DNA from: Epilithonimonas zeae
Lineage (GTDB): Bacteria; Bacteroidota; Bacteroidia; Flavobacteriales; Weeksellaceae
Direction of reading: 5' to 3'
Assembly: GCF_023278365.1 (NCBI RefSeq)
Contig: NZ_CP075338.1
Span: forward strand, 992,001 to 1,056,000
Length of the DNA stretch: 64,000 nt
Shown here: in pieces, positions 35,608 through 51,289 of the stretch
Position numbering within the stretch: the first letter of the stretch is position 1
Layout: every line of letters begins with the position of its first letter
The notes under the pieces: model-generated
The model's input: the letters and a program-made list of their open reading frames with translations, nothing else
Told to the model about the DNA's origin: nothing
Databases searched by the model: none
Translations under genes and position numbers: made by a program

Positions 35608-37564
35608 AGCATTCTACATTGATGGTTGTTCCTTCGCCTTTTACCGAATGGATCTCTACTTTTCCATTAATCAGGCGGACACGGTTTTCTATATTCTTTA
35701 AACCTAATCCATATGTGATCTGGGACTTATCGAAACCTACACCATCGTCTTCTACAGTTAAGGTAAGCGTATTACCGTCCTGACTGATTTGGACAATCAC
35801 ATTGTTGGCCTGCGCATATTTGATGACATTGCTTATGCTTTCTTGCGCAATACGATAAAATGCTAGTTGAATCTGGAAAGGAACTTTATCTGACACATCA
35901 AACGCCTCAAACTGAATCGAGAAATGTTTGTGTGTCATTGATTCGCAGAGTTCTTTCAGGGCTGTTTCCAATCCTAAATTCTTGAGCGTTTCTGGCATCA
36001 GGTTTCTGGAGATTCTTCTCATCTCCGAGATAGACTTATCTAATTTCTCAACTATATCGGTCGATTGGTAAAGCTCATTAGAAGAGATGGACATTCTGAT
36101 ATTAGCCAACATTCCGCCCATACTATCGTGGAGATCCTGAGCAATACGCTGTCTCTCCTGCTCTTCTCCCTGTAATACCGCTTGGGTTGCCTCATACTTT
36201 CTTTGGTTTTCTATGTAGAGCAAATCGTGCTGATGGCTAATGCTAATCTGCTGATTCAATTTTTGTTGTTTTCTATAGGTTAAATAAATCAAAATAGCGA
36301 TGATGAGACTTAGCCCTAATGCAATGGCCAAGATGGTAATACGCAGGTTTTTGTTTTTGGCAATCAACTCATTTCCCTTTTTCTCCTGTTCTAATTGATT
36401 AATCGTCTTTTGCTTTTCTATTGTCTTGTGCAGGATTTCGTATTCATTCAATTTCTGGAGAAGCTTTTGCTGATTAAGGCTATCACCCAAGTCATTGGAT
36501 TTCTTCATCCATTGGTAGGCTTCTTTAGAATTACCCAACACATCATTCACAGCTGCTAATTGTGTATAAGTGATTCTTCGGTTCAATGCTTCTTTACTTA
36601 ATATATTTTCTTTGAGGATTTGCTCCAACTGTTGCTTGGCTTTAACATAATTCTTTTGCATCAAATAGACATTATACATTCTGAAATACAAAAGATGCAA
36701 AAGCTTCAGCTGATTTTTAACTTTAGCCATCTTTACACCAGCATCCAGACTGCTAAGCGCTTTTGGATAATCCTGCTTGGTTGTATAGTACATCGCCTCC
36801 TGATAATAGTAATTGGTATAATGCTGAGACTGAGGATAATTCTGAAGCATCGCTTTGGCTTTATCCAAATAAACCTTTGCTGTTTTGCTGTCGGGTTTGT
36901 AGCAATAGTTACTTATAAGATTCAGATAGGTAATCAGGTGAACCGTCTTTGCTTTTGGGATCTGCTTCAGCACTTCCAAAGCCTTTTTATGATATTCTTC
37001 CGCTTTATCCAATTGTCCTACCGACATAAACGTCAATCCCAACTGGGTATAGCTGTATGCGAGCAATTCCTTGTTGTTGGTTTTCTCACTCAGCGGGATG
37101 CATTTCTCCGTTAGAGCCTTAACCAAGAAATCATAACTCTTGTCCTCTATCTGGACATAAGCCTCATTGTATAACGCTTTTATAAGAATACCTGAGTTTT
37201 TCTTATCATTCTGCAGGATTTTTATGGCCTGTTCATAATGTTTTTTAGCATCAGCCCTGCTCCCCTGATTGGTAGCGAATATCCCCTGGTAATATTCTAT
37301 CAGACCTTTTGAAAGGAGATTTTTCTTAGGGGAATTCAATACCGTGTTTAGAGCTTGAGCACTTTTCAGACTATCGGTAGTTGCCCAATATTCTGATAAC
37401 AGCAGGTAATTCTGCAAAACCACTCTATCATCCTTACTTGTTTTGATGGTATGATTAATCTGATCCAGATATCTGACCTCATCTATCGGAATCAGCTGTT
37501 GTGATCTGCAGAGTTCACTCAAAAGCAAAAACACCAGTAATAAAAATGTATTTCTGAACATCAT
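35600..37564 (-). CDS. TPR-containing sensor histidine kinase (HisKA_3 type)
   Basis: A 654-residue kinase: signal/anchor (1-21), a TPR-rich periplasmic region (about 40-395), a membrane helix (about 405-425, ITILAIALGLSLIIAILIY), the HisKA_3 dimerisation domain with the phosphorylated His in RIAQDLHDSMGGMLA, and a C-terminal HATPase_c domain (VEDDGVGFDKS, YGLGLKNIENRV). This NarX-like type pairs with LuxR-type regulators, and its partner gene follows with an eight-base overlap. Confidence 0.93.
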   Translation of the reverse strand: MMFRNTFLLLVFLLLSELCRSQQLIPIDEVRYLDQINHTIKTSKDDRVVLQNYLLLSEYWATTDSLKSAQALNTVLNSPKKNLLSKGLIEYYQGIFATNQGSRADAKKHYEQAIKILQNDKKNSGILIKALYNEAYVQIEDKSYDFLVKALTEKCIPLSEKTNNKELLAYSYTQLGLTFMSVGQLDKAEEYHKKALEVLKQIPKAKTVHLITYLNLISNYCYKPDSKTAKVYLDKAKAMLQNYPQSQHYTNYYYQEAMYYTTKQDYPKALSSLDAGVKMAKVKNQLKLLHLLYFRMYNVYLMQKNYVKAKQQLEQILKENILSKEALNRRITYTQLAAVNDVLGNSKEAYQWMKKSNDLGDSLNQQKLLQKLNEYEILHKTIEKQKTINQLEQEKKGNELIAKNKNLRITILAIALGLSLIIAILIYLTYRKQQKLNQQISISHQHDLLYIENQRKYEATQAVLQGEEQERQRIAQDLHDSMGGMLANIRMSISSNELYQSTDIVEKLDKSISEMRRISRNLMPETLKNLGLETALKELCESMTHKHFSIQFEAFDVSDKVPFQIQLAFYRIAQESISNVIKYAQANNVIVQISQDGNTLTLTVEDDGVGFDKSQITYGLGLKNIENRVRLINGKVEIHSVKGEGTTINVECYV

Positions 37565-37627
37565 TCCCTAATTATACTACAAATATCTAAATAAAAAAAA
37601 CGCAATGTCCGACCAACACTTAAAATC

Positions 37628-37708
37628 ATGGTAAACCATTAGAAATAAAATCATCGTTTCCGATGATTGCTTCCCCAAGCCATTCTGCGGAAATTTGTGA
37701 CTCACAAA
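37628..37708. promoter_or_regulatory. Three palindromes in the divergent kinase/lipoprotein region
   Basis: ATGGT-AA-ACCAT (37628-37639), ATCATCG-TTTC-CGATGAT (37650-37667... arms 37650-37656 and 37661-37667) and TTTGTGA-C-TCACAAA (37694-37708). They lie between the leftward sensor kinase gene and the rightward lipoprotein gene at 37726. LuxR-type regulators usually bind such short dyads, so one or more may be sites for the regulator at 34975. Confidence 0.4.
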
Positions 37709-37725
37709 CCTATAAAAATAATATT

Positions 37726-38208
37726 ATGAAAAAGATAAGCACCAGAATAGCTCTATATGGATTTTTATCTGTAATGACTTTCGGAACTGTTTTAACAAGC
37801 TGCAGCAAGGATAATGATGACATCGTGGATGAGGTTATCGGACAAAGCAGCCATTATAAAGTGACCGTAACGCTTGAAAATGTAAATCCTGATGATGATT
37901 TTGTCTCTGTAAGCTTAGCTGGAGGCACAGGCGGTACAAAGTCTGATATCTGGAAAGTAAACGGTGTGGTACGTACCGGAGAATCAGCAATTGGTCTAAA
38001 TGATAATGACTTTGCAGGCTCAACAAAAACCTATGTTATCGAAACTACCGAACCTATCAGAGCATTTGCCAATGGTGTACAGATTATTAATTACGGCGCA
38101 CCAATGACTGTGAAATACAAAATTGAAAAAGGCGGCAAAGTTGAAATTAACGAGAATTTAACCTTAACCGGAGATGGTTCTGACTTCACCAAGCAATATT
38201 CTTTCTAA
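37726..38208 (+). CDS. Hypothetical lipoprotein (160 aa)
   Basis: Lipoprotein signal with lipobox LTSC (cysteine about residue 24) and an acidic SKDNDDIVDE linker, typical of flavobacterial surface lipoproteins. The mature part is a small beta-sandwich-like domain (HYKVTVTLENVNPDDDFVS, GGKVEINENLTLTGDG). The ATG at 37726 is chosen because it opens the signal peptide; an upstream start at 37663 does not. It is divergent from the TPR histidine kinase operon and is a likely target of it. Function unknown. Confidence 0.75.
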   Translation: MKKISTRIALYGFLSVMTFGTVLTSCSKDNDDIVDEVIGQSSHYKVTVTLENVNPDDDFVSVSLAGGTGGTKSDIWKVNGVVRTGESAIGLNDNDFAGSTKTYVIETTEPIRAFANGVQIINYGAPMTVKYKIEKGGKVEINENLTLTGDGSDFTKQYSF

Positions 38209-38259
38209 ACACAAATCTCACATATAGCATTGGTTTAATACCAAAGGCTTATTTATAAA

Positions 38260-38287
38260 AATCCTGAGAATAGTCTCAGGATTTTTG
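38260..38287 (+). terminator. Terminator of the 160-aa lipoprotein gene
   Basis: AATCCTGAGA, a short loop, TCTCAGGATTTTTG. It lies about 50 bases after the stop. Confidence 0.85.
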
Positions 38288-38385
38288 TTGGTATTGCTCC
38301 TCTAATACACGTAAATTTCTGATGTCTTGAATGTTATATTATTTTATTTATACTAATAATTAAGAATACGCTTAATTAAAAATAA

Positions 38386-40131
38386 CTAACCCACCAACTC
38401 CGTCTTCACTCCTTCTTTCTCCAACTGATCCTGCAATTCTTTGATATAAACTTTAACCGTCTCTTTTGATTCGGAGAGTAAAGTGACTTTGGTAGAAAAG
38501 TGGGTATTAAAACTCTTTTTACCATTTTTCATCACGATCTGCATTCTGCCACTGTAACCGCTATTGGTTCGGTAATTGGATATGACTGAAAAAATGACTT
38601 TGTCAATCTTTGTGAGTTGGTATCTTTTAAAATTCATGTTGTTGAACATCAGATAACCGTCTTGCAATATAAAAGGTGAGATCTTTTTATTCCTTAAAAG
38701 GAAAGCGACTAAACCAACGATGCCACCTCCTCCCAAAATTAGTAAATAAGGCCAATACCATCCTCTATTATAAGAGACACTGGATGTCAAAATATTATCG
38801 CTTGGAGGAAACGACAGTGCCTCTGAACGTCTTAGCTTCTGGATATCATCATACCTCAAGTCGGATTTGGTAAGGATATCTCGTACTGTAGCTTCATCCT
38901 TAATTTCATAAACTGCTGATGACATCAAATTGGAGCTGCCAAAGTTGTCCAAATAAAAGTATTGCTTACCAGCCTGCCAAATATTAATGTAGGGATTCTC
39001 ACCATTGTCCAGCTTTTTAAAGTCTGATGCACCGACATCTTCCAGCGCCATCAAATGGGTAGATCGACTGCTCAAACCTGTTTTTCTGCCCCAATGTTCC
39101 GAAGCGGTCAGAAAATAAACCTTATTAGCACTGGCAAAAACATCCGGAGCCAAGTGAGTGAACTGATTATCTACAAAGGGATTGTCTCCAGCCCGCTTTA
39201 TTTTTTCAGATTCGGGGTCGTAAAAATAGAAACCTTCCCGGCAACTGAACAATGGCTGATTGGCGTGATTCAGATTTGAACTCAACATCTTGTAAGGTGC
39301 TTTGGAAAAATTAAAACTATGTCCATCGGCATACACCATCCCGTGTATGCTATCAATAAGATAAGCGCTTCTGGATGGGACATCACCTTCTATCCCTACC
39401 TCAAATAAACTGTTATTATAAACAAGAGGCAACAATTGGTTTTCGTAATATACATTCTTACCATCAGTAAAATAACTCGTACTTTCCCGCTCCTGTCTAT
39501 CTGCATACCGTATATTAAGTGGACGTATGGATTTAGGATCTGCTTTTGGCATCACTTGTCCTCTAAAAAAAGACTGATGGGCATTGCCACCAATATCAAA
39601 ACCCTTTTTTGAAGTGTAGAACTGATTCTTTGGAAGTTCAACAAATGGATACCAATAGGTCTGTGGTTTCTCGGCAGTCCCCATACTCTGCCTTACCAAT
39701 TGTAAGACTTCTTTTAAAGTGCCAAGCTCCTCATTACGCTCCGAGTTTCTGGCACAGAAGTAAGTTGTCTTGCCGTCGGTATAATAATTATTAGTGAGCG
39801 CTTTCAGATTATTGGGATTGAGTTCTTGAAGAATGATATTTCCAGCGTACACATGATTGCCATCCCAACCGATGTGCGCATCCTGATAATTATCTGTAAA
39901 AGTCTTAAAGGTCTTGGCATCGGCTCCTTTCACTTCATAATAGCCATTACTCGGTACTGCTGCATAGACTTTGCCTTTGTAAGTGCAAAACACACTATTG
40001 AGATCGGTGTTAGGTGTATTGTTAGTAATAGGTTCTGCTTTGTCTGACAAAGAGACATATAAAATACCAAAACAGGCAACAAAGATGAAAATCAATAAGC
40101 CACCAATGAAAATTCGGAATCTATAGAACAT
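38386..40131 (-). CDS. DKNYY domain membrane protein (581 aa)
   Basis: An N-terminal membrane helix (about residues 6-27), a large exported region of DKNYY-type repeats that each pair a display strand with a tyrosine-rich turn (TDGKTTYFCAR, TDGKNVYYENQLL, SANKVYFLTAS, AGKQYFYLDNFG), then a second membrane helix (about 467-487) and a C-terminal cytoplasmic domain (about 490-581) with PH-like strands. DKNYY proteins are described in fusobacteria and Bacteroidota; their function is unknown. Single-gene unit. Confidence 0.8.
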   Translation of the reverse strand: MFYRFRIFIGGLLIFIFVACFGILYVSLSDKAEPITNNTPNTDLNSVFCTYKGKVYAAVPSNGYYEVKGADAKTFKTFTDNYQDAHIGWDGNHVYAGNIILQELNPNNLKALTNNYYTDGKTTYFCARNSERNEELGTLKEVLQLVRQSMGTAEKPQTYWYPFVELPKNQFYTSKKGFDIGGNAHQSFFRGQVMPKADPKSIRPLNIRYADRQERESTSYFTDGKNVYYENQLLPLVYNNSLFEVGIEGDVPSRSAYLIDSIHGMVYADGHSFNFSKAPYKMLSSNLNHANQPLFSCREGFYFYDPESEKIKRAGDNPFVDNQFTHLAPDVFASANKVYFLTASEHWGRKTGLSSRSTHLMALEDVGASDFKKLDNGENPYINIWQAGKQYFYLDNFGSSNLMSSAVYEIKDEATVRDILTKSDLRYDDIQKLRRSEALSFPPSDNILTSSVSYNRGWYWPYLLILGGGGIVGLVAFLLRNKKISPFILQDGYLMFNNMNFKRYQLTKIDKVIFSVISNYRTNSGYSGRMQIVMKNGKKSFNTHFSTKVTLLSESKETVKVYIKELQDQLEKEGVKTELVG

Positions 40132-40205
40132 GAAGTGTTTTTATAGAGGTTGATTCTCAAATTTAATAAAAAGATTGGTTACTAATGGTTAATTATTAAT
40201 GATGA

Positions 40206-41162
40206 TTAAATTCCGAAGTTGATAAATAAGCTGAATCTGGATTTGGCTTCGATATCACCACCTGCCAATTGGGTATAAGCAGGCAACATCAGCTCGCTAC
40301 CGAGACTGAGCTTCTTGTAAGACACTTCGAATCCCAATCTACCATACAAGGCACTGCCAGCCGTCTTGGGCATTACCTCGCCAAACTGCTTGTTCCAGTC
40401 ATAGACTTCACCTTGCAAGCCCAATTTTCCAGAAAAGATACTAGTCTCATTACGCCATAATCTGTAAAATCCAGTTGCAGCATAATTCCATTGGTTACCA
40501 AAGCGGTAGTGTTTTTTATTTTCGGTTTTGATAGTGTAGTCGGTATTTATCATCAATGCAAAGAGGTTTTTCTGGAATTTATAACTCAATGCCAACTGGT
40601 AATCCCAGCTTCCTGTTCCCAATTGGAAACTTGGATTAACGCCTGTAATTCCTTTCTCATCAAATCTCCCCAACGGAATTTTTACACCTACACCACCATT
40701 CAGCTGATGGTAGTCGTTTTCGGATTTGAGGATTTCGTAAATTCCCATCACACTAGCATCTCCTATCCCACTGATGTTGATATCGCCCTGCAAAGTTTTC
40801 TTCTCGTGAAACTGAAACGGAATACTCCCATAAATACTTAGCTTCTGAGTTATCGGAATCTTACCCCAAACCTGAATGGTATTGAAATATTGATCCTGCG
40901 TCAAATCCTGCGTGAACAAGTTTTCTTTAGCCTTGTAATGTTGCGCAAAATATTTGACTCCGATGAATTGGGGATTCAATAACGATTCGAAGCCAGAAGA
41001 GCCATTGCCAGCAGCACAACCACAGGCGTCGCAGAATAATTTTTCGTATTTGGCTAAATACTGTAACTGGTTTTCATATTGAGGAATGTAAAGGCTGTCT
41101 CGGTTGGCTTTTATTTGCTGAGACAGGATGATTAGTATTAATATTATGATCGATTTTTTCAT
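40206..41162 (-). CDS. Outer-membrane beta-barrel protein of the MbnP/MbnH cluster (318 aa)
   Basis: A signal peptide (1-19), a segment with three close cysteines (C44, C47, C49 in LFCDACGCAAG) and then alternating amphipathic strands ending in an aromatic-type residue pattern (SRFSLFINFGI), as in outer-membrane barrels. It is the last gene of a leftward unit after MbnP-like and MbnH-like genes. The cysteine motif suggests metal binding, most likely copper, and the barrel could be a transporter. This is inference from context and motif only; no family name is certain. Confidence 0.72.
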   Translation of the reverse strand: MKKSIIILILIILSQQIKANRDSLYIPQYENQLQYLAKYEKLFCDACGCAAGNGSSGFESLLNPQFIGVKYFAQHYKAKENLFTQDLTQDQYFNTIQVWGKIPITQKLSIYGSIPFQFHEKKTLQGDINISGIGDASVMGIYEILKSENDYHQLNGGVGVKIPLGRFDEKGITGVNPSFQLGTGSWDYQLALSYKFQKNLFALMINTDYTIKTENKKHYRFGNQWNYAATGFYRLWRNETSIFSGKLGLQGEVYDWNKQFGEVMPKTAGSALYGRLGFEVSYKKLSLGSELMLPAYTQLAGGDIEAKSRFSLFINFGI

Positions 41163-41178
41163 TGTTGATTTTTATTTA

Positions 41179-41272
41179 ACCACAAAAGGCACAAAAGTTT
41201 TGGTTTTGAACACAAAGGGCACTAGGTTTTTGTTTCAAATGCTGTTGGTAGTCTCACAAAGGCGCTTCACTT
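41179..41272 (+). repeat. Dispersed repeat family C
   Basis: ACCACAAAAGGCACAAAAG, then ACACAAAGGGCAC and CTCACAAAGGCGCTTCAC. It matches the elements at 45709 and 50980 in core and order. It lies between the outer-membrane protein gene and the diheme protein gene. Confidence 0.55.
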
Positions 41273-41293
41273 TGATGAGATTTATATTTATTT

Positions 41294-41353
41294 CTCGCAG
41301 ATTTTTAGGATTTTACAGATTATTAAATCTGCTTGATCTGTAAAATCTGCGAG
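41294..41353. repeat. Palindromic repeat (CTCGCAGATTTT arms)
   Basis: CTCGCAGATTTT and, 36 bases on, AAAATCTGCGAG in perfect inversion, with inner matching ACAGAT/ATCTGT. A strong hairpin of a type often seen in flavobacterial intergenic DNA (from memory, not searched). Confidence 0.6.
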
Positions 41354-41368
41354 TTAATTATTATTGGA

Positions 41369-41392
41369 CATTGCTTCACTTCGTTCGCAATG
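41369..41392. repeat. Palindromic repeat (CATTGCGAACGAAGTGAAGCAATG)
   Basis: On the minus strand CATTGCGAACGAAGTGAAGCAATG is a near-palindrome with arms CATTGC and GCAATG. A third kind of repeat within one 257-base spacer. Confidence 0.55.
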
Positions 41393-41419
41393 ACAATAGC
41401 AGTTTCGTATTAATAGCTA

Positions 41420-42496
41420 CTATTCTGCAAATTGCTTGTTAGTAATAAATTGTTGGTCGGTGAGGGTTTTCAGGAAAGCGATGATGTACTGTTTTTCTAA
41501 AGTAGTCATTGGGAGACCAATATATCCGTTCTGTTTCAGAATCGGGTCCAGATTGGCTTGATTCTCTACATTATCCGAATAGAAATTGAGCACAGCATCC
41601 AAAGAATAGAAACGTCCGTCGTGCATATAAGGTGCAGTGTATTCTACATTTCGGAGGCTTGGCACACGGAATTTCATATTATCATTCCAATCCAATGTCA
41701 CACGGTATCTACCACGGTCGTCGTGCTGTGCATTGTAATACATTCCAGTATTTCGATAACTTTCATCGGTAAACAACTCTCCTGAATGACAGCTTGCACA
41801 TTTATTTTGAAATAATGCCATCCCTTGAGATTCTTCATTTGTGAAAGAAGCTTTTCCTTTCTTCATTCTGTCATATTTGGAATCGGCGGAAATCATTGTG
41901 ACCATAAACTGGGTCAACGCTTTCAATACTCTTTCGCCGGTAATATTCTCGTCGCCATAAGCTGCTTTGAATAGCTTTTTATAATTGGCATCTTGACTTT
42001 GTTTTGAAACGACTTCGGGCAGAGAACTGTCCATTTCAAAATCTGTAGTAATAGGAACCAAAGACCGCTCATCCAGATTATGGCTCACGCCATCCCAAGT
42101 GTAGTTTTTGAGAAATGCCATATTCTGAATTGGCGGTGCATTGCGGATGCCTAATTTATCATCAATACCGTGGCTCACAGGATGTCCGTGATGAGTGAAC
42201 GCATACTCCTGAATATGACAGAAACCACAAGAAATGGTATTGTTACGCGATAGTTTGCCTTCATAAAATAATTTCTTACCCAAGGCTACACCATTTACAG
42301 TTACAGGATTTTTTTCAATATCAAATGCCAACGCTGGAAAATTTGTCGGAACCTCCAGATTGTACGTTTTGTCTTCTTCAAAAGCTTCGCCTTCATATTC
42401 GTTGGAGCAAGACATTGATATTCCTGAAATTACAATGAATAAAATCCAAAGAGAACATAATCGCCCTCTTTGGAATTGTTGAATTGACTTAATCAT
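41420..42496 (-). CDS. MbnH-like diheme cytochrome c peroxidase family protein
   Basis: A 358-residue lipoprotein (lipobox MSC, C30) with two haem c motifs: CGFCH at 90-94 and CASCH at 233-237, as in the bacterial CcpA/MauG family. Its gene overlaps that of an MbnP-like protein by eight bases. In methanotrophs MbnH is a MauG relative that oxidises a tryptophan of its partner MbnP, which then binds copper. By this pairing I infer the same kind of modification here. A plain hydrogen peroxide-reducing cytochrome c peroxidase is the alternative. Confidence 0.85.
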   Translation of the reverse strand: MIKSIQQFQRGRLCSLWILFIVISGISMSCSNEYEGEAFEEDKTYNLEVPTNFPALAFDIEKNPVTVNGVALGKKLFYEGKLSRNNTISCGFCHIQEYAFTHHGHPVSHGIDDKLGIRNAPPIQNMAFLKNYTWDGVSHNLDERSLVPITTDFEMDSSLPEVVSKQSQDANYKKLFKAAYGDENITGERVLKALTQFMVTMISADSKYDRMKKGKASFTNEESQGMALFQNKCASCHSGELFTDESYRNTGMYYNAQHDDRGRYRVTLDWNDNMKFRVPSLRNVEYTAPYMHDGRFYSLDAVLNFYSDNVENQANLDPILKQNGYIGLPMTTLEKQYIIAFLKTLTDQQFITNKQFAE

Positions 42497-43310
42497 TATG
42501 AACGTGGTCTACTTTGAACATATTGATGAGGTTGTTGCTGACATTTACTAAATGTGCGCTGCTGCCCATCGCCATATTATTGTAAGTATCCAATGACAAC
42601 GTCGTTTTCCCACTCAAGTATTGGTTGAAATCTGCAAGAATATGAACAGAAGGTGTAATATCCTTATTCACTCTGGCTGTAGTCGGTAAATCCAAAACCA
42701 CTTCTCTATAAAGATCTGCGGTTCCGTTTGAGGAAACATCTCCCATATTGCCGCAATGGTTCATAAACTCGGTGTCAGGTGTTGATGTTCCATACTTGCC
42801 TTCAAGTTTTGTGAATATGTAACCTGCAGACCAAGACCAAGCCATTCCTTCTTGTTTGGCTTTGTCCCAAAACAAACCTTGTCCGTCCTGACCAATAAGA
42901 TAAGCCGCAGGGCTGATCCCCAAGCCTAATTTAATTTTTTTATAATTTCCTTTCGGGACTTCGCTGAGGTTAATGAAGACTATTCCAGCTTTGGCTTCTT
43001 CCTGATTGATAATGAAAGCACCTTTGTCAGGATTGTTGTAATGGTATCTAAATTCCGATCCGTTTTCATCGGTTAGTGAGATGTTGCTGATGATGTATTT
43101 AAGCGTTGAGAACTGGTGTTTTTGTCCTTTGACTGAGGTTTGTATGGTCTGATTCAAAACAATATCGCCGAGATTATAGAAGCCGTTCTCGAATTTGACT
43201 TGAAGATTTCCAGTTGTATTATCTTGGATATCGTCATCATCGTTGTTACTGCAAGATGAAAGAGTTATTATTGAGATTAATAGTAATGATAATAGTTTAT
43301 AGATTTTCAT
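42489..43310 (-). CDS. MbnP-like lipoprotein
   Basis: A 273-residue lipoprotein (lipobox SSC, C20) with an acidic NNDDDDIQD linker. The domain shows features of the MbnP family: LQVKFENGFYNLGD at the start, FSTLKYIISNISL, the core GMAWSWSAGYIFTKLEGKY with its tryptophans, and a C-terminal FKVDHVHND with histidines. MbnP proteins bind copper after a tryptophan is changed by MbnH. Its gene comes just before the MbnH-like gene with an eight-base overlap. Probably a periplasmic or outer-membrane copper-binding protein. Confidence 0.85.
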   Translation of the reverse strand: MKIYKLLSLLLISIITLSSCSNNDDDDIQDNTTGNLQVKFENGFYNLGDIVLNQTIQTSVKGQKHQFSTLKYIISNISLTDENGSEFRYHYNNPDKGAFIINQEEAKAGIVFINLSEVPKGNYKKIKLGLGISPAAYLIGQDGQGLFWDKAKQEGMAWSWSAGYIFTKLEGKYGTSTPDTEFMNHCGNMGDVSSNGTADLYREVVLDLPTTARVNKDITPSVHILADFNQYLSGKTTLSLDTYNNMAMGSSAHLVNVSNNLINMFKVDHVHND

Positions 43311-43348
43311 TTGTTAGATGTTATGATTGATAATTTTTAAAGGTTTTT

Positions 43349-43404
43349 ATCACAAAGGCAAAAGATTTTTTAAACAATTCTTCGTTTCTAAGGCACAAAG
43401 GCTT
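43349..43404 (+). repeat. Dispersed repeat family C (short copy)
   Basis: ATCACAAAGGCAAAAG and GGCACAAAGGC within about 55 bases. It lies between the MbnP-like gene and the GC-rich element at 43458-43593. Confidence 0.45.
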
Positions 43405-43457
43405 GACTTCGTCAATATTGATAAAGACTGTTATTTTTTGCTGAAATGTGAGTTTTT

Positions 43458-43593
43458 GTGCGCTGCTGCGATAGGGATAGCAGCGGTTACCCCGCAGGGC
43501 AGCGGCGGAGCGAAGCGGAGCCGTTGACCGAGGAGTATGAGCGGATAGCCCGACCCGAGTGGCTGCCTTAGCGTCGGAGAGGGAATCGCCCTA
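43458..43593. repeat. GC-rich palindromic intergenic element
   Basis: About 130 bases that are far richer in G and C than everything around, with inverted pieces (GCTGCGATAGGGATAGCAGC, GCGGCGGAGCGAAGCGGAGCCG) and GATAGCCCGACCCGAG. The rest of this window is AT-rich, so the composition marks it as a REP-like or mobile element. It has no reading frame. Confidence 0.5.
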
Positions 43594-43607
43594 ATTACCT
43601 ATATTAT

Positions 43608-43964
43608 CTAAACAATTGGAGGTCTGAAAATGTGTTTCAGATACAGATAAGAATAATCTGTGGTGTATGGGAAAGTAAGGCTGGTAAAGAATCTTTGCCC
43701 TACTGTTTTGACTGCAGCAATCTCAACCGGAATATAGCAGTCGATGATTTTCTGGGTCGGATTTTTGGATTTGGAATCTTCTGAGCTGTTTTTGGCGAGC
43801 TCTTTTCCGAGGTAACATTTACCGTTGCAATGCAGCTCCGGTTTTTTCTTGTTGATACACAAAACGTTTGAAATATAATCATAATTAACCGCATACTCTA
43901 CCAATGGCAGCATTGGTTTGAGCACCAAATAAAAGACTAGTAAAAGGTTAAAGATGAGTTTCAA
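43608..43964 (-). CDS. Small exported Cys-motif protein, paralogue 1 (118 aa)
   Basis: An N-terminal hydrophobic stretch (about residues 1-20) with the rare end LKPMLPLVEYAVNYDYI, then cysteines C36, C46 and C50 in LCINKKKPELHCNGKCYLGKEL-like order (C-x9-C-x-G-K-C-Y-L), a fourth Cys near residue 77 and a conserved end FRPPIV. The protein at 45911-46276 has the same pattern, with cysteines at identical positions. Short proteins of this type are found near copper and haem genes in this phylum. Probably a periplasmic metal- or thiol-active protein; no tested function is known to me. Confidence 0.78.
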   Translation of the reverse strand: MKLIFNLLLVFYLVLKPMLPLVEYAVNYDYISNVLCINKKKPELHCNGKCYLGKELAKNSSEDSKSKNPTQKIIDCYIPVEIAAVKTVGQRFFTSLTFPYTTDYSYLYLKHIFRPPIV

Positions 43965-43984
43965 GACTTTTTTTTGAGGTTTTT

Positions 43985-44014
43985 AAAAAGCACAGGCTAG
44001 CTGTGCTTTTTTTT
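43985..44014. terminator. Strong bidirectional terminator after the SOD gene
   Basis: AAAAAGCACAG, five bases, CTGTGCTTTTTTTT. It separates the SOD gene from the small Cys-motif gene, so the two are probably different transcripts or linked by readthrough only. Confidence 0.88.
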
Positions 44015-44029
44015 GATATATTGAGGCTG

Positions 44030-44698
44030 TTACTTAATAGCTTCCTCATATCTTCTGCTGATTTCTTTCCAGTTGGTCACGTTCCAAAGTGCAGCCAGAT
44101 AATCGGCTCTTTTGTTCTGATATTTAAGATAATAAGCATGCTCCCAAACATCGATTCCGAAAATTGGCGTTCCCTTTACCTCGGCGATATCCATCAAAGG
44201 ATTATCCTGATTTCCGGATGAAGTCACCGCCAATTTTTTGTCAGCCGTTACTACCAGCCAAGCCCAACCTGAGCCGAAACGATCAGCACCGGCTTTGCTC
44301 AGCTTTTCCTTCAAAGCATCCAAACTCCCAAAAGAATCGTTGATGGCTTTGGCTAATTTAGCGGAAGGCTGTGTATTTTTCTCAGGTGTCAACACTGTCC
44401 AGAACAACTCGTGGTTGTAGTGTCCGCCAGCGTTGTTTCTAACGGCAGGACTTTCTTTGGAAATGTGGGAAAGAATCTTTTCCAAACTTTCTTTTTCTAG
44501 TGGTGTTCCTGCAATGGCTTTGTTTAAATTTGCAACATAAGCTGCTGCGTGTTTTGTGTAATGGATTTCCATTGTCTGTGCATCAACAGATCCTTCCAAA
44601 GCATTGTAAGCATATGGAAGCGGCGTTTGTTTGAACTGTGCCGTCGCAAAAGTTGCTGCAGATATAGCACTTGCGAGGAATATTTTCTTGATTTTCAT
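44030..44698 (-). CDS. Exported Fe/Mn superoxide dismutase
   Basis: A 222-residue SOD with a signal peptide (MKIKKIFLASAISAATFATA). The four metal ligands are visible: the His in MEIHYTKHAAAYV, the His in NNAGGHYNHELFW, and Asp and His in IFGIDVWEHAYYLKYQ. An exported Fe/Mn-SOD is uncommon; most are cytoplasmic. It shares the leftward unit with SCO and YHS genes. Copper catalyses radical formation in the periplasm, so a protective role beside copper genes is plausible (inference). Confidence 0.9.
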   Translation of the reverse strand: MKIKKIFLASAISAATFATAQFKQTPLPYAYNALEGSVDAQTMEIHYTKHAAAYVANLNKAIAGTPLEKESLEKILSHISKESPAVRNNAGGHYNHELFWTVLTPEKNTQPSAKLAKAINDSFGSLDALKEKLSKAGADRFGSGWAWLVVTADKKLAVTSSGNQDNPLMDIAEVKGTPIFGIDVWEHAYYLKYQNKRADYLAALWNVTNWKEISRRYEEAIK

Positions 44699-44726
44699 AA
44701 TAACTTTTTTAGTGGTTAGACATTTA

Positions 44727-45410
44727 TTATTTTAATAATTTTCTGATATCTTCTATTAATTTTTCTCTATCCGCATGGTACTTCCCTCTCAGGCTGGTTT
44801 TAGTTCCAGCTTCATCTTCGTAATTCAAACCTGAATAATAAAGAACCGGCATATTGTTCTCATCGAACCGGCAACGGAGATTTCCTTCTTTATCCACCAA
44901 AGCAATCATCCCGCTATGATTGAGACTCTCCGAATCATCTTCCTTATCTCCAACATAAATGTCAAACATATCCGCTAAGTTACCGATATAATCCCGGTCT
45001 CCCGATAGAAAATGCCAATTGGACGACTTGGCTCCAATCATTTTAGCGTGGTTTTTCAGCACTTCCGGTGTATCATTGGTTGGGTCTATGCTGATGGAAA
45101 TGATTCCGAAATCCGGATTGTTGATTTGCTCATCGATGTATTTCATATTGGAATTCATCACAGGGCAAATCGTAGGGCAACGGCTGTAAAAGAACTCTAC
45201 GAGATAAACTTTTCCGAGCATATCTTTATCGGTAATCTTCTTGGAATTCTGGTCTGTGAGTGCAAATTCCGGAACTTTCATTACCGTGTAAAGACTCTTT
45301 TTGAAATAGCTCATCCCAATTCCTATCACCAAAAATAGTACCGCAAAAACTATTATCGGCAGAATCAGTTTGCTTTTCTGGAAAGACTTCTGTTTCTTTC
45401 TGTTTATCAT
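44727..45410 (-). CDS. SCO1/SenC-type copper chaperone
   Basis: A 227-residue membrane-anchored thioredoxin-fold protein. The anchor is about residues 14-34. The copper site residues are visible: C78 and C82 in SRCPTICPVMN and H165 in SLNHSGMIA. SCO proteins deliver copper to cytochrome oxidase CuA or other sites. The ATG at 45410 overlaps the YHS gene stop by four bases (ATGA), which supports translational coupling. A longer frame from 45467 would overlap the YHS gene by 61 bases and is rejected. Confidence 0.92.
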   Translation of the reverse strand: MINRKKQKSFQKSKLILPIIVFAVLFLVIGIGMSYFKKSLYTVMKVPEFALTDQNSKKITDKDMLGKVYLVEFFYSRCPTICPVMNSNMKYIDEQINNPDFGIISISIDPTNDTPEVLKNHAKMIGAKSSNWHFLSGDRDYIGNLADMFDIYVGDKEDDSESLNHSGMIALVDKEGNLRCRFDENNMPVLYYSGLNYEDEAGTKTSLRGKYHADREKLIEDIRKLLK

Positions 45411-45676
45411 TTCAAAGCATATTTGGCTGGAGTTTTCTTGAATTCTTTTTTGCAATGATCGCTGCAAAAACCATAAGTTTTGCCTTTATAAATGACAGTA
45501 TCTTTTAGGAATTCGGCTGTTTTCATATGGCAAATCGGATCATCTGAGTTCACGACCTTTACACCTTTGAGGTCGGTCTTGGGCTTCATTTTGGAAACCT
45601 GTTTTACTTTGGGTGTCTCCTGTGCACAAGACAGTGCCGACACCGAAAGTAGTATCATCAAAATATTGAATTTCAT
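45407..45676 (-). CDS. YHS-domain lipoprotein (89 aa)
   Basis: A small lipoprotein (lipobox LSC, C17) with a YHS domain: DPICHMKTAEF with C49-H50-M51 and FCSDHCKKEF with C71 and C75. YHS domains bind metals and are common in copper-handling proteins. It starts the unit that continues with SCO and SOD; its stop overlaps the SCO start by four bases. Confidence 0.9.
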   Translation of the reverse strand: MKFNILMILLSVSALSCAQETPKVKQVSKMKPKTDLKGVKVVNSDDPICHMKTAEFLKDTVIYKGKTYGFCSDHCKKEFKKTPAKYALK

Positions 45677-45708
45677 TTTTTTGAAGTTGATTTAATAATA
45701 AATTTTAA

Positions 45709-45820
45709 ACACAAAGTTCACAAGGATTTTTTTCTTAATGTTTATTAAGGTTCACAAAGGCGCTTCGCTTAAAAAAGTTTTGTTTATTATTTTAACGCAA
45801 AGGCACAAAGTTTTTTTTAA
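45709..45820 (+). repeat. Dispersed repeat family C
   Basis: Three related parts: ACACAAAGTTCACAAGG, TTCACAAAGGCGCTTCGC and ACGCAAAGGCACAAAG, ending in a run of eight T. This is the clearest copy of the family in the window and lies upstream of the YHS-SCO-SOD unit. Confidence 0.6.
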
Positions 45821-45910
45821 CATCTACTGTTATTGAAAAACAAAGACGATTCGCTAAGTCCGAGAGTCTAAAATAGCTTTCGACAAAATGAGCCTTACAG
45901 TATAAAGTTA

Positions 45911-46276
45911 TTAAACCACCGGTGGATGGAATATCCTTGATTCTATGGAAAAATTATAGAATTGAGACAGAAAAGAATTCTGTTTTTGATTGTCCAGATT
46001 GAAATTAAAATCACTTAAAACTGTGAAAATATCTTTAACAGTAAATAATTCTGAGAATACGGAAAGTTTCAGTTGGTCTTGCTTTGCTGAGTTTTGAGAG
46101 GATTTGGAAAGTTCTTTGGCTAAGTAACACTTGCCTTTACAATCCATTTCTTTTTTTGCTCTGTTCTCACAAAGATTTTTGGTGATGTAGTTGTAATTCA
46201 CCGTATAATCTACCAATGGCAAAACGGGACGCAATGCGATTGTGAAAATGATGAATATGGAAATGAATGCTTTCAA
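45911..46276 (-). CDS. Small exported Cys-motif protein, paralogue 2 (121 aa)
   Basis: Paralogue of the 118-aa protein at 43608: the same hydrophobic start ending in LRPVLPLVDYTVNYNYI, the same cysteine positions C36, C46 and C50 (LCENRAKKEMDCKGKCYL), the KEL-K-S segment and a proline-rich end (HPPVV). It lies upstream of the YHS-SCO-SOD unit on the same strand, separated by a family C repeat. The pair therefore brackets the copper-related genes. Function unproven. Confidence 0.78.
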   Translation of the reverse strand: MKAFISIFIIFTIALRPVLPLVDYTVNYNYITKNLCENRAKKEMDCKGKCYLAKELSKSSQNSAKQDQLKLSVFSELFTVKDIFTVLSDFNFNLDNQKQNSFLSQFYNFSIESRIFHPPVV

Positions 46277-46350
46277 TACAACAAAAATAACGTATTAGTC
46301 TCAGATATCAAATGATATTTTACAGTAGATTCTTAAATATAACTTATTTT

Positions 46351-46420
46351 AAGGTAGTACCTACGGCACTTTTGTCTATCATTAATTTTTTTACTATTAA
46401 CAGGTCGCTCGTACCGAGGT
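46351..46420. repeat. Possible dispersed repeat (GGTAGTACCTACGGCAC type)
   Basis: Starts AAGGTAGTACCTACGGCAC and ends AGGTCGCTCGTACCGAGG, with a T-rich middle. GC-rich ends around an AT-rich core stand out from the flanks. I recall similar stretches in other flavobacteria but have not searched, and there is no second copy in this window. Confidence 0.4.
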
Positions 46421-46440
46421 TCTAATAATCAAAATTAAAA

Positions 46441-46479
46441 AACAAAAAAGGTCAGAAGAAAACTCCTGACCTTTTTGTT
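46441..46479. terminator. Terminator of the endonuclease I gene
   Basis: AACAAAAAAGGTCAG, ten bases, CTGACCTTTTTGTT: a long inverted repeat with A- and T-runs, 16 bases after the endonuclease stop on the minus strand. Confidence 0.87.
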
Positions 46480-46494
46480 ATGATTTGAATTGGA

Positions 46495-48252
46495 TTAATC
46501 AACAATTACTTTCGTGCTGCTAGATTTTGTTTTCACAAAATAAACACCTTTAGAAAGCTTTTTCAAGTTAATCTTTTCGTTGTTGTTAACGTTATTGATT
46601 GTTTGAACCAATTGCCCGTTGGTACTGTAAATCTGAACTGTTTCGTTCTTAGAAATTCCACTGATGAACAATTCGCTGTTTTTAACTGGATTTGGATAAA
46701 CTGTTAATTTTTGGTTTTTAGCACCAGATTCTGAAACAGCTAATTTTTCGTAGCAAGTCCAAGAAAGATCATCAAAAGATACTCTGTTGTTTGTTGTAGT
46801 ATCCACCAATTCTATTATTACATTATCTTCCACATTAATCTCAGAAATTGTAGTCGTAGTAGGTATTTTAGAATAAGGAATTTGTCCTTTTACAACACCA
46901 TTAACTTTCAAAGTATAGTTACCCGCAGAATCAGCAAAAGGCAAATAAGTTTTAACCGTTAAAGAACCAACACCTCCAGAGATCGTAGAAGATTTCAACG
47001 AACCTTTTCTCAAACAGATTGCTCTGTTATTATCTCCATCGATATGAATTTGCTTATCCGTTCTAGCATAGGTTGCAGTCCATGTAATGCCTTTATTAAC
47101 CCATTGTCTATCAAGGTAAGATGAGTTAGTAGCTGGTATAGTTTCAAAATCCTCAGTTCCACAAGTTGTCTCTGGCTCACCTGGATTTCCGTGTCCTGAT
47201 GTTGTGCTCTCTACTGTATCACTATTATTAGATTTATTACCCGCCGCATCTTTTGCTACAACATATAAAATATAAGTTGTAGCAGAGTTAAGTCCTGAGA
47301 CTGTTCCGCTCGTTGTTGTAACCGTAGTTTTATATGTATTGTTCGCATAGATATCATATCCACTAACCGCAACATTATCGGTAGAAGCTGTCCAGGATAA
47401 TGAAATGCTAGAAGAAGTAGTTCCTGTAACACTAAGATTTGTTGGGACAGTTGGAGCCTCTGTATCAATAGTACTTCCACCATTGAAGGTATCTGGCCAA
47501 GTATTCTGAGCAGCAGGACCTCCCCAAATTACAGTTGCTAAGTAAGCATTGTCAATAAATGGATTTCTGTTATGCTGAATTCCAAAAACTACATTATTTC
47601 TTTGTCTTTCAAAGTCTGAAACCGGATCTTCAGCATTCCATTTCAAAAGAATATCCGGGAAATCAGAAGAATAAGTAGAAGGATTCATTGTGATGTTCAA
47701 AGGAAGACATCTCGTGTTGTATCTTACATACATATACATCAAGATTCTAGCAACATCTCCTTTCCATTCGTCTCCAGGATACCATCCACCACGACTTGTT
47801 TTGTAAGCTGTAGCTCCCGTTCCATCATCAAACAACAAACTTCCTCTTGTACTGTTCAAAGTGTTGTCTGCCGGACGAAGGTGGTGACCATCTGAACCAG
47901 GACCGGAAGTTCCCAAGTTAGGTGTTCCTTTAGATTTTGCATAGACGTGCTCTCTATTCCAGCTTCCACTGTAAGGACGGCTTCTCTGATGTGTACCAGA
48001 ACTCTGAGATCCATACATCAATAAAATGTTGTTTGGATTAGCCGGATCTGCGTCACTAGTTTTGAAAAGCGATGCCAACCCTGCAGAATATGCAATTGTC
48101 TGCGTATGGGTTGTTGTAATTAATGTTGCAAGATCAGCTTTTAATTCATTTTTAGTTTTGTTGAAGTTAACTCCAGAATAATAAGATGGAGCTGACTGTG
48201 CAAAACCAATAAATGAAATCATACTTGCTAAAAAAGAAACTTTTAACTTCAT
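46495..48252 (-). CDS. T9SS-secreted endonuclease I family nuclease (585 aa)
   Basis: Parts in order: signal peptide (1-18), an endonuclease I/NucM-type nuclease domain (about 20-255) with SWNREHVYAKSKG and the GPGSDGHHLRPADNTLNSTRG core that holds catalytic His and Asn residues, a fibronectin type III domain (about 265-350), a beta-sandwich domain (about 370-500) and a C-terminal type A T9SS sorting domain (YPNPVKNSELFISG to the end). Likely degrades extracellular DNA and RNA for nutrition or biofilm turnover. Confidence 0.92.
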   Translation of the reverse strand: MKLKVSFLASMISFIGFAQSAPSYYSGVNFNKTKNELKADLATLITTTHTQTIAYSAGLASLFKTSDADPANPNNILLMYGSQSSGTHQRSRPYSGSWNREHVYAKSKGTPNLGTSGPGSDGHHLRPADNTLNSTRGSLLFDDGTGATAYKTSRGGWYPGDEWKGDVARILMYMYVRYNTRCLPLNITMNPSTYSSDFPDILLKWNAEDPVSDFERQRNNVVFGIQHNRNPFIDNAYLATVIWGGPAAQNTWPDTFNGGSTIDTEAPTVPTNLSVTGTTSSSISLSWTASTDNVAVSGYDIYANNTYKTTVTTTSGTVSGLNSATTYILYVVAKDAAGNKSNNSDTVESTTSGHGNPGEPETTCGTEDFETIPATNSSYLDRQWVNKGITWTATYARTDKQIHIDGDNNRAICLRKGSLKSSTISGGVGSLTVKTYLPFADSAGNYTLKVNGVVKGQIPYSKIPTTTTISEINVEDNVIIELVDTTTNNRVSFDDLSWTCYEKLAVSESGAKNQKLTVYPNPVKNSELFISGISKNETVQIYSTNGQLVQTINNVNNNEKINLKKLSKGVYFVKTKSSSTKVIVD

Positions 48253-48269
48253 TTCGAAAATATATTTAA

Positions 48270-48803
48270 TTAGGTTGTTTTAATAATTTTATTTTGATAA
48301 ATGATATCCAATGGATGTTCCCCAATAATTACTGAGACTTTGTTTTCAAACTCCAGAAAAAAGCTGTTGTCAAACCTATAAAGCTTAGAATGAATTTTAT
48401 TTTCATTAATCTGGGTCGAAACTTCAACATCAATTCCATTTTCTAATTCTTCCTTAGAAAAATTAATATCACTTAATTCTAAATTTTCTCCAAGACGAAT
48501 AACACTCGTCAAAAGTCCCGGATGAGAATCTCCTGCTCCCACAAAAAGCCTGTTCTCTTTTTCATCAATCCAGATGACGTACAAAGGCTCTTTTTTTCCA
48601 CCAACATTGATTCCTTTTCTTTGTCCAATCTTGAAATTTCCCACACCCTGATGTTCTCCAACCAAAAAACCATCAAATAGTGAGTACTCTTTTTTCTGGG
48701 ATTTCCAGATGAGTTCATCTTTCTTTGAATGAAATCTCGGCAATTCTCTCCTATAGATTGGAGAGCTTGCAGGTATTTCAACTATTTGTCCTTTTTTGGT
48801 CAT
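48270..48803 (-). CDS. Orphan MnmA C-terminal-half protein (PRC-barrel-like, 177 aa)
   Basis: Matches only the middle and C-terminal domains of the tRNA 2-thiouridylase MnmA: KKGQIVEIPASSPIY, VGEHQGVGNFKIGQRKGIN and the VGAGDSHPGLLTSV segment follow the family in order. The N-terminal PP-loop ATPase with the SGGVDSS motif and the catalytic cysteines is missing, and nothing in the 168 bases upstream encodes it. It therefore cannot thiolate tRNA alone. It may bind tRNA or MnmA, or have a new role; decay of an old duplicate is the alternative. It is intact and has a poly-G tract upstream (48830-48837). Confidence 0.78.
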   Translation of the reverse strand: MTKKGQIVEIPASSPIYRRELPRFHSKKDELIWKSQKKEYSLFDGFLVGEHQGVGNFKIGQRKGINVGGKKEPLYVIWIDEKENRLFVGAGDSHPGLLTSVIRLGENLELSDINFSKEELENGIDVEVSTQINENKIHSKLYRFDNSFFLEFENKVSVIIGEHPLDIIYQNKIIKTT

Positions 48804-48829
48804 TAAAATTAAATAAGTAATGATTATTA

Positions 48830-48850
48830 CCCCCCCCTTTTTGATTGGGG
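48830..48850 (-). promoter_or_regulatory. Poly-G tract and hairpin ahead of the MnmA-like gene
   Basis: On the minus strand a run of eight G (48830-48837) preceded by CCCCC (48846-48850) with an eight-base loop. It lies about 27 bases before the start of the MnmA-like gene. Such homopolymers can change length by slippage, and the GC stem could also end the upstream two-component transcript. Length change has not been tested. Confidence 0.4.
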
Positions 48851-48971
48851 GCGCTAATATAGAAATTTATATTTAAACAAGGTGTATCTGATTATTAATT
48901 TACAATTATTAATAAAAAATTAACTTTTACAGAATATTTGATAATAATATTTTAGAATTTAATATCAAAAA

Positions 48972-49652
48972 CTAAAATTCCGGAAACTCAACCTTGAAAC
49001 CTATTCCACGAACAGAATCAAATTTAATTCTTTCATCTTTCTGAAAATACTTGCGCAATCTGGTCATAAAAACATCCAAACTTCTTCCCAGAAAATAATC
49101 ATTTTCTCCCCACAGTGTCTCAAGAATTTCTTTTCTGTTGATGATTTTTTGATTGTTTTTAGAAAGCAAAAGCAACAATTCGGATTCTTTCTCCGTCAAC
49201 TGAATGGTTTCATCTTGAAAAAGCAACTGAAACTGCGAAGGAATGAATGAATAATTTCCGAGTTTAATTATTGCTTTTGTAGCATTCTGTTGTCTTTTGA
49301 GTATATTTTTGATTCTTAATATCAGTTCTTCCGGTTCACAAGGTTTTGTGATATAATCGTCCGCACCAAGCTTCAAACCTAAAATTCTGTCGATACTTTG
49401 ACCTTTCGCCGTTAAAAACAAAAATGGAATATTCGAAGTTTTTCTGATTTCCTTAGACAATTCGAAACCGTCGATCACAGGCAACATTACGTCGAGAATT
49501 GCTAATTGATATTGGTCAATCTGCTTTTTGTTTTTCAGAATTTCTTCAGGATTCGGGATCCAATTCACATCGAAATCAGAAAATTCCAAATACTGCTTCA
49601 GAACCATTCCCAAGTCCTGGTCGTCTTCAACTAGTAAAATTTTAGGCTTCAT
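48972..49652 (-). CDS. OmpR/PhoB-type response regulator
   Basis: A 226-residue regulator: receiver (residues ~1-118, acidic pair in LVEDDQD, phosphoacceptor Asp in LAILDVMLPVIDG, Lys in YITKPCEP) and a C-terminal winged helix (about 128-224, QLTEKESELLLLLSKN, RSLDVFMTRLRKYF, RGIGFKVEFP). It overlaps the end of the kinase gene by 11 bases. Three 11-base-spaced repeats upstream of 51290 are likely binding sites (inference). Confidence 0.95.
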   Translation of the reverse strand: MKPKILLVEDDQDLGMVLKQYLEFSDFDVNWIPNPEEILKNKKQIDQYQLAILDVMLPVIDGFELSKEIRKTSNIPFLFLTAKGQSIDRILGLKLGADDYITKPCEPEELILRIKNILKRQQNATKAIIKLGNYSFIPSQFQLLFQDETIQLTEKESELLLLLSKNNQKIINRKEILETLWGENDYFLGRSLDVFMTRLRKYFQKDERIKFDSVRGIGFKVEFPEF

Positions 49653-50946: not shown

Positions 50947-51216
50947 ATTGATTCTTCTAAAACCATAAAGAATAATTTAAACGCAAAGTCCGCAAAGTTT
51001 TTTGAATCTTATTGAAAATATTTTTAAGATTCGCAATTCGCCTTTGGCGTAATCATCGATTCCTTTAAAAACAATAATCATATTGAGATAAAGGCGCTTC
51101 GCTCAGCAAAAATTAATCTTGAAATATTCAAATTCGTGTTCTTGGTGAAAATCTTTGTGCCTTTGTGTTTAACTTTTTGAACATCAAAAATACAATCAAA
51201 TTTCTTTCAAAAAAGA
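50947..51216. other. Repeat-rich spacer between kinase and barrel genes
   Basis: The divergent spacer of about 343 bases. It holds a family C repeat (50980-51172) and then the regulatory repeats described separately (51217-51245). No reading frame of note. Confidence 0.5.
50980..51172 (-). repeat. Dispersed repeat family C (extended copy)
   Basis: The minus strand shows ACACAAAGGCACAAAG at its right end and the plus strand ACGCAAAGTCCGCAAAG at its left end. Between them are AAAGGCGCTTCGCTCAGCAAAA and ATTCGCCTTTGGCG. The ends are thus inverted relative to each other, giving a roughly 190-base composite element. Confidence 0.5.
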
Positions 51217-51245
51217 CATTAACCTTCCATTAACCGTTCATTAAC
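51217..51245 (+). promoter_or_regulatory. Three CATTAAC direct repeats at 11-base spacing (OmpR-type sites)
   Basis: CATTAAC at 51217, 51228 and 51239: exact 7-base repeats separated by four bases, so one helical turn apart. This is the layout bound by dimers of OmpR/PhoB-type regulators. The last repeat ends 23 bases before a CAATTTTG -7-like box (51269-51276) of the barrel gene, so it lies over the -33 region, where an activator would bind. The likely regulator is encoded at 48972. Confidence 0.6.
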
Positions 51246-51289
51246 AAAACTTTTCTGTGTTTCGTCTCAATTTTGTCAAAATTATTGAA

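Follow-up and report, generated by a model that had tools for sequence, protein, structure and literature searches.

How a bacterium that is no methanotroph might employ the MbnP/MbnH pair is the question raised by an eight-gene cluster of Epilithonimonas zeae (Bacteroidota), located entirely on the minus strand at positions 40206-46276 of the window, i.e. the whole 64,000-nucleotide stretch analysed here (NZ_CP075338.1, positions 992,001 to 1,056,000). In the order of transcription, the genes encode a small membrane protein (CYL2), a YHS-domain lipoprotein, an SCO protein, a superoxide dismutase (SOD), a second small membrane protein (CYL1), MbnP, MbnH and an outer-membrane barrel, CYL1/CYL2 being our own label after the CxGKCYL motif of the small proteins. 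Outer-membrane copper acquisition is poorly characterised, and conservation of the MbnP/MbnH pair extends well past the bacteria that make methanobactin (available text of PMC3621798). An original prediction made from the window proposed a copper-acquisition or copper-storage pathway centred on this pair, with SCO delivering the metal and SOD handling radicals. Our analyses give about even weight to the view that the cluster constitutes a module for copper capture and relay that works without a chalkophore.

Homology and conservation assign both MbnP and MbnH to the kynurenine type. Both the MbnP-like lipoprotein and the MbnH-like di-heme protein of the original prediction were recovered by profile searches (Table 1), together with the eight-base overlap of their genes (42489-42496). 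The window MbnP matches the fold of its solved relative 7l6g, deposited as a 'four-Cys motif protein', and its M-x-W-x-W motif aligns with MAWNW of that structure; its only Cys residues are the lipid Cys20 and Cys186. Among the family-level copies, W158 and W160 are present in 52/52 and M156 in 51/52, and H185 of the copper site is also found in the window protein; we take M156, W158/W160 and H185 to be the copper-site residues. By homology, MbnP would bind copper after oxidation of a Trp to kynurenine.

The position of MbnP in the cell envelope was approached through its lipoprotein signal, in which Cys20 is followed by an acidic stretch (CSNNDDDD). Acidic residues after the Cys averaged 3.44 of 9 in the family-level copies with a recognised lipobox (45/52), compared with 1.27 in the YHS lipoproteins (26/33 copies), and 3.13 in MbnP at class level (46/58 copies); in the window MbnH the lipobox pattern caught an internal CxxCH, and the MbnH acidity figure was left unused. 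SDDDD and SDDFE act as surface-export signals in Bacteroides and Flavobacterium (available text of PMC5080379), and because the acidic run resembles these signals, MbnP is probably located on the outer face of the outer membrane, by analogy with CorA and MopE, which sit on the cell surface (available text of PMC3912023).

The di-heme protein carries CxxCH at residues 90-94 and 233-237, as had been predicted, and these sites, its CCP_MauG domain and its adjacency to mbnP place it in the MbnH family, TIGR04039 (MbnH) being its best-scoring model (225.1 bits). Among solved structures its closest relative is 6e1c (E 2.4e-41), presumably the MbnH of Methylosinus. In the alignment Tyr306 stands opposite a Tyr of 6e1c and a Met of the peroxidase 3o5c, in a column that is presumably the axial-ligand position, and is thus of the MauG type instead of the Met of cytochrome c peroxidases; by the printed coordinates, and assuming an ungapped stretch there, it would fall on MauG residue 294. 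Y306 is kept in 48 and C30 in 49 of the 51 family-level copies, and MbnH lies beside MbnP in 51/52 family loci, the exception having a short MbnP. In the genome, a single contig of 3.94 Mb that is 99.99% complete, no further CCP_MauG (PF03150) protein was found, and a search of it for MbnB (PF05114) at E 0.001 gave no match, with two control genomes positive. The methanobactin-free part of the original prediction is thereby supported.

Comparison of gene order across relatives revealed a conserved cluster. MbnP was found in 20/23 same-genus genomes, and among 20 same-genus loci (window included) all eight genes occur in one identical order in 16, in two blocks in 2, and as an incomplete set in 2. 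Alignment A1 took in 25 of the 26 rows picked; L086, with a short MbnP, was excluded. Barrel searches of genomes were run at E 1e-10, and only part of the first-look candidates was scored per genome (e.g. up to 7 for the barrel and 14 for the small protein at class level, and 15 in a family-level search), so that the genome counts are minimum figures. Of 32 further family loci, 24 carry the barrel, and in the family sample at least 61/148 genomes do, with MbnP in at least 69; each of the 62 family barrel places shares its strand with an MbnP place 1,132-1,520 bases away, and the barrel was detected in none of the 79 family genomes without MbnP. In the class sample (295 genomes), MbnP occurs in at least 218, the small protein in at least 160 and the barrel in at least 81. 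Within 4 kb of 78 class barrels outside the family we found the small protein in 67 cases and MbnP in 53 (both in 50, neither in 8), and an MbnH-like gene within 5 kb in 38; some of these loci stop at contig ends, beyond which neighbours could lie. In the phylum sample at least 28/247 genomes have the barrel, including 7 that do not belong to the class. Besides that, MbnP and MbnH appear split into several reading-frame pieces in one genome (L164:6902-8662), through decay or sequencing error, and two side-by-side MbnP copies accompany one barrel and one small protein at L200, L207 and L211.

The last gene of the cluster encodes a predicted channel. Its AlphaFold2 model, with a mean predicted local distance difference test (pLDDT) of 79.3, contains roughly twelve long strands, and the best matches in the PDB are FapF (5o67; E 6.9e-12, template modelling scores 0.62/0.67) followed by the COG4313 channel 4rl8, so that by fold the protein would be a FapF/COG4313-like channel. 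The motif CDACGC precedes the barrel, inside the low-confidence model segment 16-57, and its C44, C47 and C49 are present in 44/44 family-level copies. At class level CxxCxC is kept in 50/78 barrels, and by visual count 22 of the other 28 have CDxC towards the end of a stretch resembling a signal peptide.

Two paralogous small proteins (43608-43964 and 45911-46276), absent from the original prediction, proved to be steady members of the cluster. Each has one hydrophobic N-terminal stretch, followed by C-x9-C-x-G-x-C and a Pro-Pro at the end; C36, C46, G48, C50, P115 and P116 occur in 82/82 family-level copies and, at class level, the Cys residues with looser spacing in 69/69 and the near-terminal Pro-Pro in 63/69. 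The protein matches no Pfam or NCBIfam family, and a Pfam name was rejected, 34 members having given only single-member matches at E 0.0094 or worse. In 20 small-protein regions chosen among class places without a barrel alongside, a neighbour had the TonB-dependent copper receptor as its best NCBIfam model in 5 and as its second-best in a sixth, and a YtkA-like lipoprotein was found above cut-off in 3 and below it in 1. The other regions show siderophore- or haem-type TonB receptors, one region lying beside a protein of the type IX secretion system (T9SS), and 9/20 do, on closer inspection, carry MbnP, MbnH or a diverged barrel. This set of partners offers a copper-linked guess for an unclassified protein family found in at least 160/295 genomes.

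A further character of MbnP may be linked to the barrel. His-x-His occurs within the last 16 residues of 68/75 MbnP copies located beside a CxxCxC barrel vs 4/57 of the others, the 132 copies of known surroundings comprising 68 with both tail and CxxCxC barrel, 7 with the barrel only, 4 with the tail only and 53 with neither; MbnP matches shorter than 190 residues or above E 1e-12 were left out. In a tree of MbnP computed with the tail left out (117 rows remaining once duplicates and roughly three quarters of rows L021-L039 had been dropped), no fewer than 7 changes were counted in the tail and 14 in the barrel state. Five independent pairs differ in the tail; on average the barrel followed in the same direction in 4.3 of them and in the opposite direction in 0.1 (median p 0.125). 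The pattern is suggestive of a link between the tail and the barrel Cys state; proven co-evolution of the tail and the third barrel Cys was rejected, the raw counts being strong and the independent pairs only 5.

Barrels without MbnP may have another partner. Among 15 MbnP-less barrel loci laid out gene by gene, 9 have a lipoprotein of about 131 residues right after the barrel, His-rich in most, with a terminal FHCH in 5/9 and, in most, a weak likeness to DUF4625 that falls below the cut-off. This lipoprotein (L165:7076-7471 and eight similar loci) is a possible alternative copper binder; our literature search returned nothing joining DUF4625 with copper.

The remaining genes turned out to be less constant. 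SCO, whose start codon (ATG at 45410) overlaps the stop of YHS, belongs to the SCO1/SenC family by profile and by its CxxxC (CPTIC) and His, and C97, C101 and H184 (numbered on the longer open reading frame starting at 45467) are kept in 33/33 copies. SCO, YHS, the exported-type SOD and the CDACGC (44-49) outer-membrane protein are all present, as had been predicted, and are encoded on one strand. Over the 52 family loci, matches to SCO, YHS and SOD numbered 33, 33 and 25, SOD thus missing in about half of them, and the three were rejected as part of the core, being absent in relatives that keep the small protein, MbnP, MbnH and barrel. Because they are optional, delivery of the metal by SCO and handling of radicals by SOD are no general feature. 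Nor is the cluster centred on MbnP/MbnH alone, since it also holds the barrel and the small Cys protein, which occur with no MbnP nearby as well (25/78 class barrel loci). What speaks for the predicted copper pathway is the pair with its expected residues, SCO and YHS alongside, and the copper-type TonB receptors found next to relatives of the small protein.

These observations can be arranged into a mechanism. MbnP, and perhaps MbnH, would be displayed as lipoproteins on the outer surface, where the MauG-like MbnH would oxidise Trp158 of MbnP to kynurenine, and Cu(I) would be bound with Met156 and His185; both steps are proposed on homology. Copper may then pass from MbnP via the His-x-His tail to the CDxCGC of the FapF/COG4313-like barrel, acting as the outer-membrane channel, a step drawn from the linkage and the tail. 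On the periplasmic side, as the neighbourhood suggests, the membrane-anchored three-Cys protein may take copper on to YHS/SCO and thus to cytochrome oxidase, and the exported SOD, which is optional, may provide MbnH with peroxide or shield the site. Tentatively, and with less confidence than in the module as such, we propose a TonB-independent, chalkophore-free copper port in Bacteroidota, in which a CDxCGC barrel and a three-Cys relay would work with exchangeable surface lipoproteins (kynurenine-type MbnP with MbnH, or His-rich ones), the His-x-His tail of MbnP serving as docking or transfer site.

Several results weigh against this proposal. The curated equivalog cut-offs were missed by both MbnP (TIGR04052, 29.8 vs 140 bits, which is why the window MbnP is assigned to another subfamily) and MbnH (TIGR04039, 225.1 vs 362.85 bits); the MbnP profile finds the solved structure weakly (E 0.0049), and single-sequence phmmer with the window MbnP found no solved structure at E 1. 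MbnP is commoner than the barrel at class level (218 vs 81 of 295 genomes), and 25/78 class barrels, some near contig ends, have no MbnP within 4 kb. No barrel lies within 4 kb of 16/25 MbnP copies in 21 MbnP-rich loci, so that MbnP would work without it elsewhere, and no MbnH-like gene within 4 kb of 18/56 MbnP copies in class barrel loci. Other settings thus exist for MbnP, and its Trp would, in some genomes, depend on an MbnH encoded elsewhere or on none at all. Furthermore, the match between tail and barrel Cys does not reach significance once shared descent is taken into account, the TonB-copper matches beside the small protein are all under the curated cut-off, FapF-like barrels are exporters whereas import is proposed here, and we infer the copper role in this clade from homology.

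The direction of transport bears on the first of three rival explanations, in which MbnP would bind excess surface Cu(I) and the barrel and Cys protein would export it as a tolerance device. FapF, the closest solved relative of the barrel, is an exporter, the adjoining SOD would suit copper-caused oxidative stress, and no inner-membrane copper importer was seen on reading the open reading frames of 36000-52000. However, SCO proteins serve oxidase assembly, and the other neighbours of the small protein are often TonB receptors, i.e. importers. CorA and MopE are, besides that, copper-repressed (available text of PMC3912023), and we regard such sequestration or efflux as unlikely. Slightly less likely still is a module for another metal or for several, e.g. 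zinc or iron, in which MbnP would be one of several interchangeable binding lipoproteins; this would accommodate the mostly His-rich lipoprotein after the barrel in 9/15 MbnP-less loci and the several neighbouring TonB receptors whose best-scoring models are of siderophore or haem type; against it, SCO, YHS, MbnP and the TonB-copper-type neighbours all indicate copper, and Cys-rich soft sites prefer Cu(I).

The pair itself might alternatively consist of an ordinary peroxide-removing cytochrome c peroxidase and an unrelated structural lipoprotein. The CCP_MauG superfamily is shared, with many plain peroxidases among the solved relatives, the SOD neighbour suggests oxidative stress, and some MbnP copies have no neighbouring MbnH; yet the near-constant adjacency in the family (51/52 loci), the Tyr instead of Met in the axial column and the fold shared with 7l6g make this explanation improbable.

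The proposed copper module resembles several known systems in part. With MbnP/MbnH of Methylosinus trichosporium (7l6g, 6e1c) it has in common the MbnP fold, M-x-W-x-W and His, the MauG-like MbnH and the gene adjacency; unlike there, the genome has no MbnB-type gene, the cluster no TonB receptor and MbnP no four-Cys motif, while the acidic surface-type lipoprotein signal, the His-x-His tail, the barrel and the small Cys protein are its own extras. CorA/CorB and MopE/SACCP of methanotrophs likewise combine a surface copper protein, Trp converted to kynurenine and a co-transcribed di-heme peroxidase (available text of PMC3912023). Neither a barrel nor a small Cys protein appears for them in the available text of PMC3912023 and PMC3621798, and in sequence MbnP shows no marked similarity to MopE or CorA (available text of PMC3621798). 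FapF/COG4313 channels share the barrel fold and differ in lacking CDxCGC before it, and the context here is copper-like, not functional amyloid. As in BtuG-BtuB of Bacteroides (from partial accounts), a surface lipoprotein would feed an outer-membrane transporter, here a small barrel instead of a TonB-dependent transporter, and copper instead of vitamin B12. Outer-membrane copper uptake is also the task of CrtA/OprC, and CrtA serves respiratory oxidases; the importers named in the available text of PMC12914433 are TonB-dependent transporters, unlike the eight-gene cluster, which has no TonB receptor, even though relatives of its small protein do adjoin such receptors. Our literature search found the barrel and small protein nowhere named as partners and no paper pairing MbnP with Bacteroidetes; the neighbourhood analyses of key MbnP/MbnH papers, outside that search, may name some.

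Table 1. Features of the cluster, with positions in the window.
Feature	Position	Strand	Evidence
Outer-membrane beta-barrel channel (PF13557), N-terminal CDACGC	40206..41162	-	Pfam 36.2 bits, cut-off 22
CDACGC motif of barrel, residues 44-49	41016..41033	-	Conservation and AlphaFold2 model
MbnH-type di-heme enzyme, lipoprotein-like Cys30, Tyr306	41420..42496	-	CCP_MauG 171 bits
MbnP lipoprotein, M156-x-W158-x-W160, H185	42489..43310	-	PF20243 124.1 bits, cut-off 27
M-x-W-x-W motif (MbnP residues 156-160), predicted site of kynurenine and Met	42831..42845	-	
C-terminal DHVHND tail of MbnP, residues 268-273	42492..42509	-	
CYL1 small membrane protein, C36-x9-C46-x-G48-x-C50, C-terminal PP, TTG start	43608..43964	-	
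Fe/Mn-type superoxide dismutase, signal-peptide-like start, accessory	44030..44698	-	Sod_Fe_N and Sod_Fe_C
SCO1/SenC family protein	44727..45410	-	PF02630 99 bits
YHS-domain lipoprotein	45407..45676	-	PF04945 51.2 bits
CYL2 small membrane protein, CYL1 paralogue, TTG start	45911..46276	-	
Promoter-like stretch before CYL2	46282..46318	-	Alignment of 7 same-genus loci

The promoter-like stretch before CYL2, judged by what we take to be the promoter consensus, reads TTTG-N19-TATTTTTG, overlaps an inverted repeat (ATATCA-TT-TGATAT) and is conserved in the seven-locus alignment (window included). Its -7 element stops a few bases short of the TTG start and, being so near, hints at a leaderless CYL2 mRNA. 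A copper operator was rejected, the repeat being exact in the window only, with 0.43 matches expected by chance (up to one mismatch), and thus possibly fortuitous. The two-component system at 48972-50946 is not claimed as regulator, relatives of both genes having been seen in only 4/51 other family loci, although the fetched regions may stop short of it. No known RNA element reached its gathering score in 40000-46600. Between CYL1 and MbnP, a G+C-rich stretch of 126 bases (43467-43592), also present in the close relative L029 and not in four others aligned, looks like a dispersed intergenic repeat, as parts of it recur at 8 other genome places. Degenerate tandem CTTTGTG-type sequences lie in intergenic positions at 41181-41226, 45710-45725 and 50982-50997 (allowing up to 2 mismatches, 4 matches against an expected 0.88, and 0/100 shuffles reaching 4). 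A T9SS sorting domain is encoded near the cluster, consistent with Bacteroidota.

With MbnP present in at least 218/295 class genomes, the barrel, the three-Cys protein and the candidate alternative His-rich lipoprotein would turn a 'mysterious pair' into a system of named parts.

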